Shown in pieces: positions 28,140-39,223 of a DNA stretch of 64,000 bases. The stretch covers positions 2,294,001 through 2,358,000 of the forward strand of contig NZ_CP019067.1 of NCBI RefSeq assembly GCF_001989615.1, read 5' to 3'. Both the position numbers and the translations under genes were made by a program. Numbering within the stretch: the first letter of the stretch is position 1; each line of letters starts with the position of its first letter. The notes beneath the pieces were generated by a model. That model was given only the letters and a program-made list of their open reading frames with translations. It was not told the DNA's origin and ran no database searches. Source of the DNA: Halorientalis sp. IM1011 (GTDB taxonomy: Archaea > Halobacteriota > Halobacteria > Halobacteriales > Haloarculaceae).

Positions 28140-28931
28140 ATGACAGCGATCGAAACGACCGACCTCACGAAACGCTACGGATCGACGACTGCGGTCGCAG
28201 ACCTGAACCTCGAAGTCCCCGAGGGCGTCGTCTACGGCTTCCTCGGCCCGAACGGAGCGGGAAAGACGACGACGATGCGAATGCTCACGTCGCTGACCCG
28301 CCCGTCGAGCGGCAACGCACGCGTCGCTGGCGTCCCGGTCGACGACCGCGATCGACTCATCGATCACATCGGCTACCTCCCCGAGGAACCGCCGCTGTAC
28401 AACGAGTTGACGGCGCGCGAGCAGTTGAGCTACATCGCCGGACTGCGCGATCTCCCGGAGGAACGGACGCGGGAACGGGTCGAGGATTATCTCGAACGGC
28501 TGGACCTCGCCGAGGACGCCGACCGGCGCATCGACACCTACTCGAAGGGGATGCGGCAGAAGACGGCGTTCGTCCAGTCGCTGCTACACGATCCCGACGT
28601 GCTCTTTCTGGACGAACCGACGAGCGGCCTCGATCCGCGGGCCGCCCGGACGATCCGGGACATGATCGACGGCCTCGCCGACGAGGGCGCTACGATCTTC
28701 CTGTCGACGCACATCCTGCCGGTCGTCGACGAACACGCAGACACCGTCGGCGTCCTCTCGGACGGCGAACTCGTCGCCGAGGGGCCGCCAGCGGACCTGA
28801 AACAGCGGGCGAAGGCCAGTGACGACGCCGGCTCCGGTCGGACGCTCGAAGAGGTGTTCCTCGACGTGACCAGCGAGGACCCTGCGACGGAGCGGAGCGA
28901 GGCGATAACGGGGGAGCGGCCGGATGCCTGA
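28140..28931 (+). CDS. ABC transporter ATP-binding protein (second system)
   Basis: 263 residues. Walker A GFLGPNGAGKTTT, a signature in the form YSKGMRQK, Walker B VLFLDEPTSGLDP and the switch His in LSTHILPVV. The C-terminal 40 residues contain the regulatory tail (EEVFLDVTSE). It overlaps the permease start by 8 bp. Together they form an ABC-2 exporter distinct from the 13-15.7 kb system. The gene starts about 100 bp from the divergent phosphoesterase. Confidence 0.92.
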   Translation: MTAIETTDLTKRYGSTTAVADLNLEVPEGVVYGFLGPNGAGKTTTMRMLTSLTRPSSGNARVAGVPVDDRDRLIDHIGYLPEEPPLYNELTAREQLSYIAGLRDLPEERTRERVEDYLERLDLAEDADRRIDTYSKGMRQKTAFVQSLLHDPDVLFLDEPTSGLDPRAARTIRDMIDGLADEGATIFLSTHILPVVDEHADTVGVLSDGELVAEGPPADLKQRAKASDDAGSGRTLEEVFLDVTSEDPATERSEAITGERPDA

Positions 28932-30669
28932 AGCGGGCTGGCCGCGACACGGACTCGCCATCGGCCGGCAGGAGTTCCGACGGACGCTCCGGGCACTCAG
29001 AGGCGACTCCGCGCGACTCGTCTTCATGGCCTTCGGCGGGCTCTTCCTCTCGATTTTCGCACTGGTCGGCACGTGGCTCGTCCTCCGGTTCGGCGGGGAA
29101 CTCGCCGCCCGGCCGCTCACGGACGGGATACGGGGTGCCGTCACGATCCAGTGGCTGTTCATGGTGTACATCTTCGCCCAGCGGGCCGGCTCGCGTCACG
29201 ACCGCCTCGACAACGAGTCGCTGCTGTTGCTGACCGTCTCGACCCGGACGGCCGTGCTGGGACTGCTCAGCGCGGACCTGTTCCGCGCCCTCTCGTACGT
29301 GGCCATCCCGGCGGCGCTGATCGGCGGGGCGTTCGTCTACGCGACGGCGTCGCCGCTGATGGTTCCGTTCTTCCTGCTCGCGGGCCTCCTGCTCGTGCTC
29401 ACCGCGCTGGTCGCCGGGTACGCGATCGGCCTGTCGACTCAGTTGCTGGTGGCGCGCGTTCGATTCGTCGCTCGCTACAAGACTGCCCTCGGCATCGCCG
29501 CCGTCGCCGCCGTCTTCGGCTGTTACTTTCTCGTGATGAACGTCGGGGACGGGGGCGTGACGGCCCTCTTGGGACTCTGGCCGCTGAGCTGGCTCGTCGA
29601 TCTGGCTGTCGTCGGCTCGCCGGTCGTGGAGTCGTCGACGCGGGCGGCCGTCGCGGCGGTCGGGAGCGTCGTCTGGATACTCGGCTGGGCGGTCCTCCTC
29701 GAACGGGTCGCGACGGCGCTGTGGTTCGGCGACACCGTCGAGAACGAAGTCGCCGAACAGAAGGCGACCGTCGACGCCGACACGGGGGACGATCCGCTGG
29801 CCGCGGCCGTGCGACCCCTCGCGCTCCCGTCGATGAGCCGTCCCGTCCTGCGCGTCGCTCAGCGGGCGGTCGTCGTCGCCCGCAGGAATCCAAGCCGGCT
29901 CTCCTTCCTCATGATCCCGGTCCTCGTCGTGGGGTCGTCGATGATCAACCTCGCCCAGAGCGGGGGGCTGTTCGCCGCGTTGCCACCAGTCCTCGCACTC
30001 TTGCTCCCCTGGCTGGCCGGCGGCACCTTCGGTCTCAACCCGTTCGGCGACGAGGGGCCGGTCCTGCCCGCGACGCTCACAGCACTGGCGTCGGGGCGGC
30101 AGTACGCGACCGGCCTCGCCGTTCCCGGACTGGTCTTCGGCCTGCCGCTGTCCGTCCTCGGTACGGTTGCAACCGGTGTCTACGGCCCCTTCGAGCCCGT
30201 CGAGGTCGCCCTCCTCCTCGCGGTGGCGGTCGTGTTCTGCCTGCTGGCGGTCACGCTCGCACCGGCGGTCGGTACGATCTTCCCGCGCTTCGATCCGATG
30301 ACGGTCGGGAGCGACCGGGAAGTCGTCCCGCCGAGTCTGAGTGCAGGGATCGTCTACTCCCTGGTGTTCGTCGTCCTCGGCGGGACCGCGGTGGGCTGTG
30401 CGCTGGCTCCTGGCGGAACCCGGGGCGTCTACGCCGTCCTCGTCGGCGGACTGCTGGCGTTCCCGTTCGCCTGGCTGGCTGGGAACGGCGTGCCGCTCGC
30501 CGACGCCGTCGCGACGTGGCTGGGCGGGGCCGGTGACGCGATCGCATCCCTTCCGGTGGCCGGCGTTCACTGGGGCGGATACGGTGTGTCGCTGGCTGTG
30601 GCACTCGCGCTCTGCTGGTGGTCCGTCCGGACCGTCTCGCGACGCTACGAGGCGTACGCTATTGAGTAG
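28924..30669 (+). CDS. large ABC-2-type permease, partner of the preceding ATPase
   Basis: 581 residues with about fourteen hydrophobic segments, roughly twice the size of a usual ABC-2 permease, consistent with an internal duplication. The N-terminus (LAIGRQEFRRTLRALRGDSARLVFMAF) and a mid-protein repeat of that theme (VLRVAQRAVVVARRNPSRLSFLMIP, about residues 308-335) mark the starts of two permease-like halves. It likely exports a substrate with the ATPase overlapping its start. Substrate not known. Confidence 0.85.
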   Translation: MPEAGWPRHGLAIGRQEFRRTLRALRGDSARLVFMAFGGLFLSIFALVGTWLVLRFGGELAARPLTDGIRGAVTIQWLFMVYIFAQRAGSRHDRLDNESLLLLTVSTRTAVLGLLSADLFRALSYVAIPAALIGGAFVYATASPLMVPFFLLAGLLLVLTALVAGYAIGLSTQLLVARVRFVARYKTALGIAAVAAVFGCYFLVMNVGDGGVTALLGLWPLSWLVDLAVVGSPVVESSTRAAVAAVGSVVWILGWAVLLERVATALWFGDTVENEVAEQKATVDADTGDDPLAAAVRPLALPSMSRPVLRVAQRAVVVARRNPSRLSFLMIPVLVVGSSMINLAQSGGLFAALPPVLALLLPWLAGGTFGLNPFGDEGPVLPATLTALASGRQYATGLAVPGLVFGLPLSVLGTVATGVYGPFEPVEVALLLAVAVVFCLLAVTLAPAVGTIFPRFDPMTVGSDREVVPPSLSAGIVYSLVFVVLGGTAVGCALAPGGTRGVYAVLVGGLLAFPFAWLAGNGVPLADAVATWLGGAGDAIASLPVAGVHWGGYGVSLAVALALCWWSVRTVSRRYEAYAIE

Positions 30670-30732: not shown

Positions 30733-30805
30733 GGGCCGGTGGGGTAGCTTGGTATCCTTCGGCCTTCGGGTGGCCGTAACCGCGATTCGAATTCGCGCCG
30801 GCCCA
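30733..30805 (+). tRNA. tRNA-Pro (anticodon CGG)
   Basis: 73 nt fold as a full cloverleaf. The acceptor stem GGGCCGG (30733-30739) pairs with CCGGCCC (30798-30804), with discriminator A 30805. The anticodon stem CGGCC/GGCCG (30760-30764, 30772-30776) encloses loop TTCGGGT, anticodon CGG (30767-30769), reading CCG. The T stem is CGCGA/TCGCG with loop TTCGAAT. No intron, no encoded CCA. Two partial copies of the 3' part lie downstream, so this gene was probably an integration target. Confidence 0.93.
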
Positions 30806-30831
30806 CTTTCCATTTTCTCACAGGCTAGCGA

Positions 30832-30933
30832 CGGCCTTCGGGTGGCCGTAACCGCGTTCTCGCGAGCGAAGCGAGCGAGAGCCAGCGAGACTGGAGGTCT
30901 CGCGTGATTCGAATTCGCGCCGGCCCACTTTTG
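30832..30933 (+). repeat. second partial copy of the tRNA-Pro 3' end, split by about 50 bp
   Basis: 25 bp identical to the tRNA anticodon arm and following bases (30760-30784) recur at 30832-30856. After an unrelated, hairpin-rich 50-bp insert (30857-30906) the T-arm/acceptor end (25 bp, 30785-30809) recurs at 30907-30931. The 5' half of a tRNA is absent, so it is not a gene. Its terminal A (30927) is 122 bp after that of the real tRNA. It looks like an attachment-site scar. Confidence 0.75.
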
Positions 30934-31036
30934 TGCCGCGAACAAATCCGTGAGCGGCGCACACGTGACAGGGGCGAATTCGAGCAGGGAAGTCGCAGCG
31001 CGAACGAAGTGAGCGACCGTCTTCCCGTGTTCGATG

Positions 31037-31056
31037 TTCGCGCCGGCCCACTTTTG
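31037..31056 (+). repeat. third partial copy of the tRNA-Pro 3' end
   Basis: 20 bp identical to 30914-30933 (T-stem 3' side, acceptor end and CTTTTG). Its terminal A (31050) is 123 bp after that of copy 2. Beyond the 20 bp both copies run into similar sequence with CGTGAGCGG about 22 bp later, so they share downstream flank as well. The rest of 30670-31216 has no gene that I can support. Confidence 0.7.
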
Positions 31057-31216: not shown

Positions 31217-32704
31217 ATGAAGGTAGAGACAGCGGAGAGTCAATCGTTCTCCTACGGGGAAGCTCTCCGCTATATCGCCGTCGCCGTCGGTGTGATGGGG
31301 GCGCTGTACCTCCCGGCGATCCTGCTGCCCAACACGTGGTTTCGGGTACTCACGACCGTCATGCTGGTCGCGCTGCTCGGGCTGACCGGCCGAGCACTCG
31401 TGTCGGCACTGTTTTCGTTCAAACGGCCGAAGACACCCGAACTGACGCTATCGGACGCCGAACTGCCGGAAGTCAGCGTGGTCATTCCCGCGTACAACGA
31501 GGCCGCGGTGCTGCCCGGGACGATCGAGGCGTGTCGGAACCTCGACTACCCGGCCGAGAAGCTCGAGGTCGTCCTCTGTTACGAGCGCGATTCCGTCGAC
31601 GACACGGCGGCCATCTGTGAGGAGGCTGCCGCCGACGACGAGCGGTTCGTCGCGGTCGAGCGGGACGAACCCGGCGGCGGGAAGGCCAAGGCGACGAACT
31701 ACGCCCTCCAGTACGCGACCGGCGACATCATCGCGAGCATCGACGCGGACCACCGGTTCGAGTCCGACGCGATCCGCAAGGCGGTCGCGTGGTTCGAGTC
31801 CGACGAGGACATCTGGTGTGTCAAAGGGCGGTGCTACGGGGACAACCCGCGAGACTCGATTCTGGCCCTGCACGCCACCGTCGAGCGCCACATCGCCGAG
31901 AAGGCCGACCTGTTCGCACGTGACGTCTTCGGCGGGTTCACCATCTTCGGCGGCGGGCAGGCGTTCTTCCGCGCCGAGATGTTCGAGGAACTCGGCGAGT
32001 TCGACGAGAGCGTCCTCGTCGAGGACATCGACATGTCCTCGAAGATCCACGACTTCGGCAAACAGCTCCGGGTCGATCCCTCCATCGTCACGTACGAGGA
32101 GAATCCGGGCACGATCCAGTCGTGGTGGAGCCAGCGCAAACGCTGGGCACGCGGCTGGATGCAGGTCGCCTTCCGCTACCTGTTCCGACTCCCGCGCAGT
32201 CGAAACCTGTCGACCCGCGAGCGCCTCGACGCCGTCTTCACCTTCGCCTACGCGCTCATGCCGGTGTACGTCGCCTTTACGTTCCCGCTCCTGCTGTTCG
32301 ACATGGTGCGTGACTTCGCGGTCGGAAATCCCTACACCGCGTCCATCCTCGCCGACATGGGCATCGGGGCGACCCTCGAACACGGTATTCCGACCGCGAC
32401 GTACTTCTCCGAGTTCGTCCGGAACGCGCTCTGGACCCTGCTCGCGGTCGCGCCGGCCCTCGCGGCGGGCATGGTGTTCGTCCAGGACTACCGCGACGGG
32501 TACTCCCACGACCCGCTTGAGTTCGCGGCCTCGTTCACGCTGTGGATCTACCTGGCGCTCCAGAGCGTCGTCTACGTGGTGTCCTTCCTCGACGAGGTCA
32601 TCTTCGAGCGCCCGAGCATCTACGTGACGACCGCACGGGTCAACTCCCAGGCCAAATCGGGGTCGGGCTCGAAGACGAGCGGCACCGAGACCAAGTCCGA
32701 CTGA
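31217..32704 (+). CDS. membrane-bound processive glycosyltransferase (GT2, cellulose/hyaluronan synthase-like)
   Basis: 495 residues. Two N-terminal membrane segments (about 18-68) precede a cytosolic GT2 domain: VVIPAYNEA (88-96), the nucleotide-binding DAD (D176/D178), VEDID with catalytic acid D270, and Q306-RKR-W310 (the QxxRW motif of processive enzymes). Three or four membrane segments follow in the C-terminal third. Processive GT2 enzymes polymerise and export a glycan through one membrane protein. The promoter lies just after the tRNA repeat array. The product polysaccharide is not known. Confidence 0.9.
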   Translation: MKVETAESQSFSYGEALRYIAVAVGVMGALYLPAILLPNTWFRVLTTVMLVALLGLTGRALVSALFSFKRPKTPELTLSDAELPEVSVVIPAYNEAAVLPGTIEACRNLDYPAEKLEVVLCYERDSVDDTAAICEEAAADDERFVAVERDEPGGGKAKATNYALQYATGDIIASIDADHRFESDAIRKAVAWFESDEDIWCVKGRCYGDNPRDSILALHATVERHIAEKADLFARDVFGGFTIFGGGQAFFRAEMFEELGEFDESVLVEDIDMSSKIHDFGKQLRVDPSIVTYEENPGTIQSWWSQRKRWARGWMQVAFRYLFRLPRSRNLSTRERLDAVFTFAYALMPVYVAFTFPLLLFDMVRDFAVGNPYTASILADMGIGATLEHGIPTATYFSEFVRNALWTLLAVAPALAAGMVFVQDYRDGYSHDPLEFAASFTLWIYLALQSVVYVVSFLDEVIFERPSIYVTTARVNSQAKSGSGSKTSGTETKSD

Positions 32705-33847: not shown

Positions 33848-34123
33848 ATGGCGACCGCAGTGAAAGTCGACGAGGATGCGAAATCTCGTCTCGAAGAGCT
33901 ACAGGCGGAGATCAAACTCGCGACGGGCAAAAAGGTGACACAACAGACGATCCTGACTCGGTTGATCGAGGATGCCCACGAGTCAAAATCAGAATTCGTC
34001 GATTCGTTCCGTGAGACTACAGTTCCGCTCTCGGACGGGGAGATTCAGCGACTCAACGAAGCCCGGATCGAATCGGGAAAGGAAACGGACGAGGACGACA
34101 TCGACGACATCCTGTACGGATGA
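33848..34123 (+). CDS. VapB-like antitoxin of a PIN toxin
   Basis: 91 residues. The N-terminal segment KVDEDAKSRLEELQAEIKLATGKKVTQQTILTRLIED looks like a ribbon-helix-helix DNA-binding domain, and the acidic C-terminus (KETDEDDIDDILYG) would bind the toxin. Its stop overlaps the PIN start by 4 bp. It is different in kind from the AbrB-type antitoxin at 16513, so the two pairs are unrelated. Confidence 0.8.
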   Translation: MATAVKVDEDAKSRLEELQAEIKLATGKKVTQQTILTRLIEDAHESKSEFVDSFRETTVPLSDGEIQRLNEARIESGKETDEDDIDDILYG

Positions 34124-34551
34124 CTGTTTTCGTAGACACGGGTGTTCTCTACGCCGAGTTCGACGGGTCGGCGAACCGGAATGAAACGGCCGTCCGAGCC
34201 ATGGATACGGTTTATGAGGGGGAGTTCGGACAGCCGTTCACGAGTGATTACGTATACGACGAAGTCGTAACACTGACCCACAAACGAACCGGTCGCTTCG
34301 AGGCAGCACGGACCGTCGGGGAGAAGGTACGGGGCGCGAAAGACTTCCCTGACGTATACTCGTTCGCGTACGTCGATCCGACCGTCTTCGAGGCTGCAAT
34401 CGACGTGTTCGAGCGATTCGACGATCAGGGTTTGAGCTTTACCGACGCGACGACAGTTGCGCTGGTAAATCACAAAGATATCGACGCTGTGCTGAGCTTC
34501 GACGACGATTTCGATGGGCTCGTCGAACGGATCGATCCCGCTACCGTGTGA
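34120..34551 (+). CDS. PIN-domain ribonuclease toxin (VapC)
   Basis: 143 residues with all PIN acidic positions: D6 (VFVDTGVL), E48 (DEVVTLTH), D109 (SFTDATTVAL) and D128-D130 (LSFDDDF). It is the toxin of the pair whose antitoxin overlaps it by 4 bp. VapC toxins cleave specific tRNA or rRNA sites. The C-terminal end is short and canonical. The tgtA gene starts 42 bp later in the same direction, so read-through could couple them. Confidence 0.86.
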   Translation: MTVFVDTGVLYAEFDGSANRNETAVRAMDTVYEGEFGQPFTSDYVYDEVVTLTHKRTGRFEAARTVGEKVRGAKDFPDVYSFAYVDPTVFEAAIDVFERFDDQGLSFTDATTVALVNHKDIDAVLSFDDDFDGLVERIDPATV

Positions 34552-34593: not shown

Positions 34594-36081
34594 ATGGGCG
34601 ACTGGTTCGAGGTACGCGACCACGACGCCGCCGGCCGGATCGGGGAGCTGACTGTCCCCCGTGCGGACGTGACCGTCGAGACGCCGGCACTCCTCCCCGT
34701 GGTCAACCCCCACGTCAGGACGGTCGAGCCGGCCCGCATGGAATCCGAATTCGGCGCGGAGATCCTCATCACGAACGGTTACATCCTCTATGGCTCTGAG
34801 GACGCCCGCGAGAGCGCCCTCGCCGACGGCCTGCACGACCTCTACGACTTCTCCGGCGCGATCATGACCGATTCGGGCTCCTTCCAGCTCTCGGAGTACG
34901 GCGAGATCGACGTGGATACCCGCGAGATCCTCGAATTCCAGCACGACATCGGCTCCGACATCGGCACGCCGGTCGACATCCCGACGCCGCCGGACGTGAG
35001 CCGCGAGCAGGCCGCCGAGGAACTGGCGACGACACAGGAGCGACTCGAACTCGCAGCGGAGGTGGAAACGGGCGACATGCTCGTCAACGCGCCGGTCCAG
35101 GGGTCGACCTACCCCGACCTCCGGGAGCGGGCCGGACGCGAGGCCTACGCGACCGACCTCGACGTGTTCCCGGTCGGCGCGATGGTCCCGCTGCTGAACG
35201 ACTACCGCTTCGACGACGTGGTGGACATGGTGGCGGCGGCCAAGCGCGGGCTGGGCGCGGACGCGCCGGTCCACCTGTTCGGCGCGGGCCACCCGATGAT
35301 GTTCGCGCTGGCGGTGGCGATGGGCTGTGACCTGTTCGACTCGGCGGCCTACGCGCTGTACGCCCGCGACGACCGCTACCTCACGGTCCGAGGGACCGAA
35401 CACCTCGAAGACCTCGACTACTTCCCCTGTGAGTGCCCGATCTGTACGAGTCACACGCCCGACGAACTGGAGTCCTGCGGCAACCGCGAACGCGAGCGTC
35501 TGCTGGCCGAGCACAACCTCCACGTCACGTTCGGCGAGATCCGGCGGATCAAACAGGCGATCCGGCAGGGGAACCTGCTGGAACTGGTCGAGGCTCGCGC
35601 TCGCGGGCACTCGACGATGCTCGACGGCTATCGCGCGCTGGGGGATCACGCCGCACAACTCGAACGGAGCGATCCCGTCTCGAAGGACGCCTTCTTCTAC
35701 GTCTCGGGGGAGAGTGCGGCTCGGCCGGAGGTATTGCGCCACCACGAGCGACTCGACCGGCTGGACGTGGCTGGTGACGTGCTCTTGACCGAGGGCGACC
35801 CCAACGAGGCCTACGACGAGAGCTGGCGGGTCGTCCCGCCCTTCGGCCCGTTCCCGCGCGACCTCTCGGAGGTGTACCCGCTGAACGCCGAGATTCCCGA
35901 GCGCCTCGACCGCCGGGCCTACGAGCGGGCCGCGGACGGTGTGGCGCGGCTGGTCGAGACCAATCCCGACGTGACGTTCACGCTCGCTCACACTGGCTGG
36001 CCGGAGACGGCGCTGGACCGGGTGCCAGAGGACGTGGATACCTACGAACTGGGCGTCGACGACGCGTACGGCGACAGTTAG
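34594..36081 (+). CDS. tgtA: tRNA-guanine(15) transglycosylase (archaeosine TGT)
   Basis: 495 residues. The catalytic region is [10 protein letters not shown] and [15 protein letters not shown]; the second catalytic block is [15 protein letters not shown]. The zinc site starts C279-E-C281-P-I-C284. A C-terminal domain (about 370-495) is present but no separate PUA repeat is obvious. The enzyme replaces guanine-15 in tRNA with preQ0, the first step of archaeosine synthesis. arcS (37472) and raSEA (46903) complete the pathway. The stop overlaps the convergent membrane-protein stop by 4 bp. Confidence 0.93.
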
Positions 36082-37337: not shown

Positions 37338-37471
37338 GGCGAGGCGGAAAAACCCGGTCCGAGCGTGCGGATTCCTTGCTACTCGGTTGCGTGCCGGCGG
37401 GCGACCCCGACCAGCCGGGCCGGGCCGCCCGGAAGGAAAGATAATTGGCCGCGCTCGCCCGAGACGGTGCC

Positions 37472-39223
37472 ATGACCGACTACTTCGAGGTCCACGAGCG
37501 GGACGGGGCCGCCCGCATCGGGGAACTCCGGCTCGCGGACCCCCTCACCACGCCCGCCGTCGCGGACGAGGTCGTCACCGACGCGGGCAGCCTCTGGCCC
37601 GAAGAGCGCGAGGTGCCCGACGGCGACGAGTCGACGCTCACCGTCCTCCCCCATCGTGGCCTGCCCGCTGGCACGCCCGAGGAAGTCGAGGACGCGTTCG
37701 CGGTCGACTACCCGGACGTGGATTACCCGAGCGCCGCGGTCGTCACGCCCGCGACCGCGGCTGACCACGGGACCGACGCCTACGTCCTCTCGAACGCCAG
37801 CGGCTACGCCGGCCACGCGGCTGCCTTCGTCGACGCCGTGGTCTCGGTGCGGGAGGCCACACCCGCAGACACCGCCCTCTATCTGCCCGGCGTCGCCACG
37901 CCCGCCAACGTCGCGACGCTCGTCTACGCCGGCGTCGACCTCGTGGACACGGACCGGGCGGTCCTGCGGGGAACGCAGGGGTTCTACCAGACGACCGACG
38001 GCGAGTACTTCCTCGAAGACCTCGACGAACTCCCCTGTGCCTGTCCCGCCTGCCAGCAACCTGCCTCGGAGTTCGACCGCGAGGACTGCGCCGAACACAA
38101 CCAGCGTGCCCTCGCGGCCGAACTCGCGCGGGTCCGCCGTCGGGTTCGGGACGGCACGCTCCGCGATTATATCGAGGGCCAGGCCCGTCACGAGCAGTGG
38201 CTCACGGCCACGTTCCGCCGCCTGGACCAGCAGTACAGCTACCTCGAACAGCGGACGCCGGTCGTCCGCCGGAACGAGATCACGGCCGCGACCGACGACA
38301 CCATCCGGCGCGTCGAGATCCAGCGCTTCGCCGAGCGCGTAACGAACCGCTACCGCAGTCGCTTCTCGAACCCCCTCGTACTGGTGCCTTGCTCGGCGAA
38401 GAAACCCTACAGCGAGTCACAGAGCCACGGCCAGTACCACGACGTGATCCAGTGGCGCGCCCACGTCGCCTCGATGACCTCGCCCATCGGCGTCGTGCCC
38501 CAGGAACTGGAGCTCACCTACCCCGCCCAGCACTACGACTCCGTCGTAACGGGGGAGTGGACCGCCACCGAGATCGAGTTCGTCAGCGACGTGCTGGAAG
38601 CGTACCTCCGGCGCAACGACTACCCCAAAGTCGTCGCCCACGTCCCGCCGGAGGGCTACCGCGAGATAGTCGAACGCGCCACTGCCGACCTCGACGTGGA
38701 GCCCGTCTTCACCGTCGAGGATCACCCGACGACGGGCGACTCCCTCTCGAACCTCGCGGCGGAACTCGAGGGCGAACTGAAATATCCCAAGCGCGAGCGC
38801 GAACACAACACGATCCGGGCGATCGCCGACTACCAGTTCGGCGACGGTGCGGGTGACGAACTGTTCGACGACCTGCACACCGAGTCCCGCTATCCGAAAC
38901 TCCGGGTGACCGACGGCGACGGCGAGCAACTGGCGGCGATGGTCCCCGAGTACGGCGTCCTCTCGCTGACGGTCGCGGGCGCTCGCCGCTGGGTCGACAG
39001 CGACGCGCCGGTCGCGCGGGTCGAGATCGACGACTTCGTCCCCCACGGGAGCGTCCTCGCGCCGGGCGTGGTCGACGCGAGCGACTCGATCCGGCCGGGC
39101 GACGAGGTCGTGATCGAGGGGCCGTCGGCGTTCGGCGTCGGCCGCGCGGCGATGAGCGGACCCGAGATGGTCGAGTCGACGCGAGGCATCGCCAGCGAGG
39201 TCCGGCACGTCGACGAGCGCTGA
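37472..39223 (+). CDS. arcS: archaeosine synthase ArcS
   Basis: 583 residues from ATG 37472. The N-terminal part is a paralogue of TgtA (IGELRLADPLTTPA and so on) and keeps a CACPAC cluster. The ArcS-specific PCSAKKPY motif contains C307, the residue expected to attack preQ0-tRNA. The C-terminal 90 residues form a PUA domain (DSDAPVARVEIDDFVPHGSVLAPGV). ArcS adds lysine to preQ0 at tRNA position 15; RaSEA then cuts the lysine adduct to yield archaeosine. The neighbouring tgtA confirms the pathway. Confidence 0.93.
   Translation: MTDYFEVHERDGAARIGELRLADPLTTPAVADEVVTDAGSLWPEEREVPDGDESTLTVLPHRGLPAGTPEEVEDAFAVDYPDVDYPSAAVVTPATAADHGTDAYVLSNASGYAGHAAAFVDAVVSVREATPADTALYLPGVATPANVATLVYAGVDLVDTDRAVLRGTQGFYQTTDGEYFLEDLDELPCACPACQQPASEFDREDCAEHNQRALAAELARVRRRVRDGTLRDYIEGQARHEQWLTATFRRLDQQYSYLEQRTPVVRRNEITAATDDTIRRVEIQRFAERVTNRYRSRFSNPLVLVPCSAKKPYSESQSHGQYHDVIQWRAHVASMTSPIGVVPQELELTYPAQHYDSVVTGEWTATEIEFVSDVLEAYLRRNDYPKVVAHVPPEGYREIVERATADLDVEPVFTVEDHPTTGDSLSNLAAELEGELKYPKREREHNTIRAIADYQFGDGAGDELFDDLHTESRYPKLRVTDGDGEQLAAMVPEYGVLSLTVAGARRWVDSDAPVARVEIDDFVPHGSVLAPGVVDASDSIRPGDEVVIEGPSAFGVGRAAMSGPEMVESTRGIASEVRHVDER

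Follow-up and report, generated by a model that had tools for sequence, protein, structure and literature searches.

The main finding of this study is that the tandem copies of a tRNA 3' end lying behind the tRNA-Pro(CGG) gene of Halorientalis sp. IM1011 are one case of a phenomenon that extends across the haloarchaeal class, in which tRNA genes are followed by arrays of short, hairpin-bearing units that each close with the 3' end of their own tRNA. We give an even chance to the reading that these units are small (~120 bp), non-coding and probably non-autonomous cassettes inserted at the T-loop by site-specific recombination. The openly available journal papers that we searched hold no description of such units, and the class of element is apparently undescribed.

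The tRNA-Pro(CGG) locus and the anatomy of its units

In the window—the whole 64,000-nucleotide stretch that was analysed—the tRNA-Pro(CGG) gene and its units are flanked by a glycosyltransferase gene (31217-32704) on one side and, on the other, by an ORF (28924-30669) that has no Pfam match; both units fall between these genes. ARAGORN calls the tRNA at 30733-30806, its discriminator A being 30805. The parts of the locus are as follows.

30733-30805, + strand: tRNA-Pro(CGG) gene, intact (ARAGORN and sequence; nt 54-73 at 30786-30805)
30806-30927, + strand: unit 1, 122 bp, type A, consisting of a short trailer, a copy of nt 28-52, a double-hairpin insert and a copy of nt 54-73
30832-30856, + strand: unit 1 copy of the anticodon arm, variable loop and 5' strand of the T-stem (nt 28-52), 25/25 identical
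30857-30907, + strand: unit 1 core, two hairpins placed just 5' of the T-loop
30908-30927, + strand: unit 1 copy of tRNA nt 54-73, 20/20 identical
30928-31050, + strand: unit 2, 123 bp, type B
30932-30961, + strand: unit 2 trailer hairpin (hairpin 1), 3' of a T run (-17 kcal/mol, z = -3.7)
30971-30984, + strand: unit 2 left arm, a T-stem strand and inverted T-loop complementary to the T-arm copy
30985-31029, + strand: unit 2 core hairpin
31030-31050, + strand: displaced tRNA 3' end, nt 54-73, with a one-base indel in the T-loop
31051-31084, + strand: trailer T-run and hairpin 3' of the last copy

An earlier note on this DNA had described a complete tRNA followed by a split copy and a short copy of its 3' end, and these are indeed present (30733-30805; 30832-30856 with 30908-30927; 31030-31050), with terminal A residues at 30805, 30927 and 31050 that confirm the proposed spacings of 122 and 123 bp. 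Its observation that the two copies are alike beyond the tRNA piece was likewise borne out, as they have 47 nt in common at 85% identity, CGTGAGCGG included. It had also held that its reading would be refuted by relatives with a single unbroken tRNA-Pro 3' end and no homology between units outside the tRNA piece, or by units that match a simple unrelated tandem repeat; neither applies, as relatives have homologous units. Unit 1 has homologues in a congener (G002) and in G054, which belongs to another family, and 38 bp of the unit 2 core (30988-31025) are found again, exactly, behind tRNA-Glu(CTC), with close relatives behind tRNA-Ser and tRNA-Leu.

The two units differ in construction. In unit 1, a double hairpin is inserted, just before the T-loop, into a pseudo-tRNA piece (nt 28-52), and the fold of the whole unit is unexceptional (z = -0.9). 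Unit 2, as the earlier note had not noticed, is a long hairpin (z = -3.1), more stable than 200/200 shuffles, with a T-arm copy on its right side and the reverse complement of that arm on its left; the copy that closes it, at 31030-31050, is probably the original end of the tRNA-Pro(CGG) gene.

Two further features of the window are recorded here in their own right. Overlapping ORFs at 33848-34551, the first for a 91-amino-acid protein with no Pfam match and the second for a PIN-domain protein (E = 4e-10), look like a VapBC-type toxin-antitoxin pair. Two tRNA-guanine transglycosylase-family genes lie near each other at 34594-36081 and 37445-39223, the second with the TGT, DUF5591, TGT_C2 and PUA domains expected of the archaeosine pathway.

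The same anatomy is seen across 219 units at 139 tRNA loci, some of which were picked via the pattern of one recurrent core, type 2. At nt 52/53, identity to the cognate tRNA climbs from its background level to ~0.9; it drops after nt 73, and this tRNA-identical block with sharp ends, nt 52/53 to 73, is a first piece of evidence for the serial use of an attachment site that the earlier note had proposed. Units follow one another at a median spacing of 118 bp (quartiles 108-134), and their length, about 50-280 bp, is too short for an integrase gene; no recombinase is encoded by or adjoins a unit. Each begins with a T-rich start and trailer hairpin, continues with a cognate T-stem strand and inverted T-loop, then a hairpin core, and ends in nt 54-73. 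In the left arm, cognate sequence covers exactly the five T-stem positions and stops there; as its source, a direct copy of nt 42-53 and an inverted copy of nt 61-72 fit alike, both at these five positions only. Between the two T-loops, the core belongs to a small set of recurrent types, among them TCAGGGA...GACCGTGG, CCCTGGAAG...CTTCCTCCGG and GTAG...GCGTGG.

The trailer hairpin is typical of its own tRNA, whereas the core is modular and in some cases common to different tRNAs. In 28% of scored units, a core at least 85% identical is found behind a different tRNA of the same genome, against 0% for hairpin 1, which indicates that trailer and ends are local while cores can be shared. The excess of same-tRNA over other-tRNA identity is about equal for hairpin 1 and core, so that the two are told apart only by the tail of near-identical cores behind other tRNAs.

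Distribution of the units

A search of this genome with the window region returned matches behind tRNA-Glu(CTC), tRNA-Ser(TGA), tRNA-Ser(CGA) and tRNA-Leu(TAA), where arrays of 2-4 units each end in the 3' end of their own tRNA. Downstream 3'-end copies follow 24 of the 45 scored tRNA genes, a set from which a dense virus-like tRNA cluster was left out. That cluster (C1:2240734-2244715; L043, L050 and L069), in which about 30 tRNA genes lie on one strand, is an observation in its own right: unlike the host tRNA genes, its members have almost no 3'-end copies. Among tRNA loci of other genomes, either returned by search or individually retrieved, units are present at 45/95 genes in four Halorientalis congeners and at 16/33 in five other haloarchaeal genera, and copies at 0/33 in five non-haloarchaeal genera of the same phylum. 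Haloarchaeal arrays comprise one to five units. Upstream 3'-end copies number zero at every scored tRNA in all genome groups, and the same search of shuffled downstream DNA, run on all tRNAs, gave essentially no matches. With the shuffled, upstream and other-archaea controls empty, chance or simple repeats were rejected as a source of the copies.

The type-2 core gives the broadest view of this distribution. Its pattern matches at least 120 stretches in the genome collection and occurs in 123/292 genomes and 51/77 genera of the class; the phylum sample holds no match outside the class, and a reversed-pattern control gave 0 matches. All 80 listed records are haloarchaea or archaeal MAGs. Among the matches listed, 80/86 sit 33-377 bp downstream of a same-strand tRNA, and 14 tRNA isotypes are represented. 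Three of the six exceptions lie at the edge of stored DNA and a fourth, L199, is parted from its tRNA by a ~3-kb element; the remaining two (L216:7890-8000 and L255:1850-2000) have no tRNA nearby and are preceded by a truncated tRNA 3' end; in both, an integrated element has probably moved the array away from its tRNA.

Carriage of the units by viruses and an origin from plasmids were both considered and rejected. None of three core patterns matched a viral contig of the collection, which may or may not be rich in haloviruses, and phage records yielded nothing similar except a 32-bp chance match. A double hairpin similar to the unit 1 core also occurs between genes on haloarchaeal plasmids, but likeness to plasmids is limited to this double hairpin and short hairpin pieces, which are intergenic and lie beside hypothetical genes. 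Separately, contig C2 of this genome carries, twice, a larger intergenic-looking stretch with a unit 1-like double hairpin, and small GAACGAAGTGAGC- or GAGCGAAGCGAGC-based hairpins occupy intergenic positions in chromosomes and plasmids of haloarchaea, including sites that are not near a tRNA.

This distribution bears directly on one of the earlier note's two proposals, that the copies are serial attachment-site scars of lost tRNA-targeting elements, taken here as large elements removed by independent deletions; its other proposal was a mini-array built by repeated integration. The 20-22-nt block is the same as that of integrated elements, both at L199 and in a Haloquadratum prophage (PMC3119063), and the copies do behave as products of serial attachment. 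They are not, however, scars of lost large elements: about half of the haloarchaeal tRNA genes examined have units, spacing is uniform at ~118 bp, left arms are cognate, and hairpin cores are conserved across tRNAs, genera and families. The presence of homologous cores behind unlike tRNAs, in over 50 genera, already refutes most of the proposal, which we regard as very improbable, and these properties identify the units as elements in their own right.

Array dynamics, integrase elements and folding

Comparison of species reveals that arrays differ by whole units next to the tRNA. The tRNA-Cys gene has two units in this genome and none in the congener G004, and when the two loci are aligned, the G004 flank from the tRNA's own 3' end (position 1) corresponds to that of this genome from the last copy (position 213), an offset of exactly two whole units (213 = 1 + 112 + 100). 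An exact whole-unit offset on the tRNA-proximal side is also found at Leu(TAA), Pro(CGG), Met(CAT), Lys(TTT) and Lys(CTT). At Pro(CGG), unit 2 is the only unit in G004, so that unit 1 of the window is the extra one. In multi-copy arrays, the sequence of the first copy resembles the tRNA more than that of the last does in 27 cases and less in 4, with 25 ties (sign test 3e-5), a pattern that fits insertion beside the tRNA with ageing of distal copies. This gain or loss of whole units adjoining the tRNA, with distal copies the more decayed, is further evidence for serial attachment. Insertion is probably the usual direction, but exact loss of proximal units may instead produce the proximal-side differences. 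Mixed arrays and alternating repeats occur, and some arrays contain identical tandem units (e.g., three of 108 bp at Lys(CTT) of G002), which implies that ordinary recombination also alters copy number.

The identical tandem units and alternating repeats also suit an explanation that dispenses with a dedicated enzyme, in which template switching during replication or repair, at the short homology of the T-loops, copies cores from locus to locus and unequal recombination between 20-nt copies resizes the arrays. The exchange boundaries coincide with the T-loop, the sole stretch common to all tRNAs, and the inverted T-loop is consistent with a foldback intermediate. We nevertheless judge this explanation unlikely: the non-haloarchaeal archaea have the same T-loop, yet none of the 33 tRNAs examined there has copies; copies are downstream only and differences proximal; and conserved core types with fixed internal loops would be unexpected from random switching.

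A gene-bearing element at tRNA-Val(CAC) of Haloterrigena salina (L199) offers a natural comparison for the units. Behind this tRNA lies a ~3-kb element whose integrase gene is broken; its far end is a displaced copy of nt 54-73 that carries two mismatches, and a hairpin unit comes next. Gene-bearing element and units thus use the same block, and the integrase element leaves it in the same place, in line with serial attachment. Identification of the integrase remnant rests on tblastn (39-48% identity to haloarchaeal tyrosine recombinases, among the matches listed), as it has no Pfam match and its PHROGs match is weak. Similarly, 22 nt duplicated from its tRNA mark the limits of a Haloquadratum prophage (PMC3119063). 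As a separate observation, three loci (L021, L026 and L029 in G027, G008 and G021) have in common a stretch starting CTACGTATAT, which comes right behind tRNA-Pro itself or behind the last of its copies and may be a gene-bearing element integrated at this tRNA.

The sense strand folds better than the antisense strand in 154 units against 20, cases that are not independent, the units being akin. This bias holds with DNA parameters and without G-U pairs, the CCCTGG type being an exception to it. The apical stem of the type-2 core carries compensatory changes—19 cells changed on both sides versus 5.1 in shuffles, with 98.7% paired—and fixed asymmetric internal loops are conserved, as are possible tandem G-A pairs. 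Strand bias and covariation show that the sense strand was either selected to fold or passed down in folded form. Such evidence, together with the tRNA-like 3' end of each unit, is what recommends the view that the units are structured RNA genes or 3' extensions, transcribed by read-through from the promoter of the tRNA and freed by its 3' processing, in outline like the rtT RNA repeats behind E. coli tyrT. We nonetheless consider it unlikely. A T-rich stretch resembling an archaeal terminator stands after the tRNA and after each copy and, as far as sequence can tell, argues against routine read-through; unit number and type vary among species of one genus; and no Rfam family matched the units, only tRNAs reaching threshold. 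RNA-specific selection, sought as a preference for G-U over A-C in the outer helix, was rejected for want of any excess (100:96; at nt 55, some of the A-C count stems from Thr units whose register is off by one base). Because the bias survives a change to DNA parameters and the removal of G-U pairs, and because G-U is not in excess in the outer helix, RNA and single-stranded DNA are indistinguishable here, and a folded DNA strand explains the bias equally well.

A proposed cassette model and its relation to known systems

Under the cassette reading, which is the one that we prefer, a cassette would insert at the T-loop of a tRNA gene, at nt 53/54, bringing or regenerating nt 54-73 so that the tRNA is kept intact, while the earlier 3' end and its trailer would be displaced downstream. 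Repeated events would yield a polarised array with the newest cassette beside the tRNA. The inner hairpin core would be a module passing between different tRNA genes, while trailer hairpin, T-stem strand and acceptor end would stay with their own tRNA; the T-loop, near-identical in all tRNAs, would be the natural exchange point. The most likely enzyme would be a tyrosine recombinase of the haloarchaeal provirus or plasmid kind, acting in trans and perhaps on the folded sense strand, and the cassettes would presumably have no function for the host. A normal attP x attB reaction alone cannot place one core behind tRNAs with different 3' ends, and the model therefore needs a further exchange at the T-loop. 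A more ambitious version, in which the units form a mobile array with the T-loop as universal dock, core exchange, probably folded single strands and proximal growth as in integrons or CRISPR, is tentative, and we lean against it.

The 3' part of tRNA genes is the target of archaeal and bacterial proviruses, plasmids and genomic islands with tyrosine integrases (reviewed in PMC8371274). The units resemble these elements in that the tRNA is restored, the 3' block being regenerated at the gene while a ~20-22-nt fragment is displaced downstream, and in serial insertion at one tRNA. Unlike them, the units are ~120 bp long, non-coding and hairpin-structured, encode no integrase, have cores common to several tRNAs and occur behind roughly one in two scored tRNA genes.

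In the tyrT locus of E. coli, tandem 178-bp repeats each contain the last ~19 bp of tRNA-Tyr and are associated with rtT RNA. The likeness is one of architecture, namely tandem repeats of similar length 3' of a tRNA, each with its 3' end; instead of one repeat type at a single tRNA gene, the haloarchaeal units occur at dozens of tRNA genes per genome, in mixed arrays with shared cores, and the type-2 core alone is found behind 14 isotypes. As the units lack an integrase and have cores common to several tRNAs, we place them neither with the tyrT repeats nor with tRNA-targeted integration.

Integron cassette arrays, in which attC hairpins mediate insertion at attI, offer another parallel: a polarised array that changes at a fixed end, imperfect hairpins with extrahelical bases, and one favoured strand. 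The units differ in that they have no integron integrase or cassette genes and that their hairpin arms are tRNA sequence. MITEs and REP/BIME palindromes are small non-coding palindromic repeats without their own enzyme, as the units are. However, type-2 cores are not dispersed genome-wide but lie behind tRNA genes on one strand, and unit ends are cognate tRNA sequence rather than the fixed terminal inverted repeats of MITEs, the arms varying with the cognate tRNA.

What emerges is a class-wide system in which incoming cassettes seem to rebuild, time and again, the 3' end of an essential gene, and each array keeps a history that can be read. It makes concrete, in a tractable host (Haloferax), the question of which recombinase, if any, moves ~120-bp non-coding hairpins, and it affects the annotation of haloarchaeal tRNAs, maps of integration sites and the reading of tRNA-derived small RNAs.
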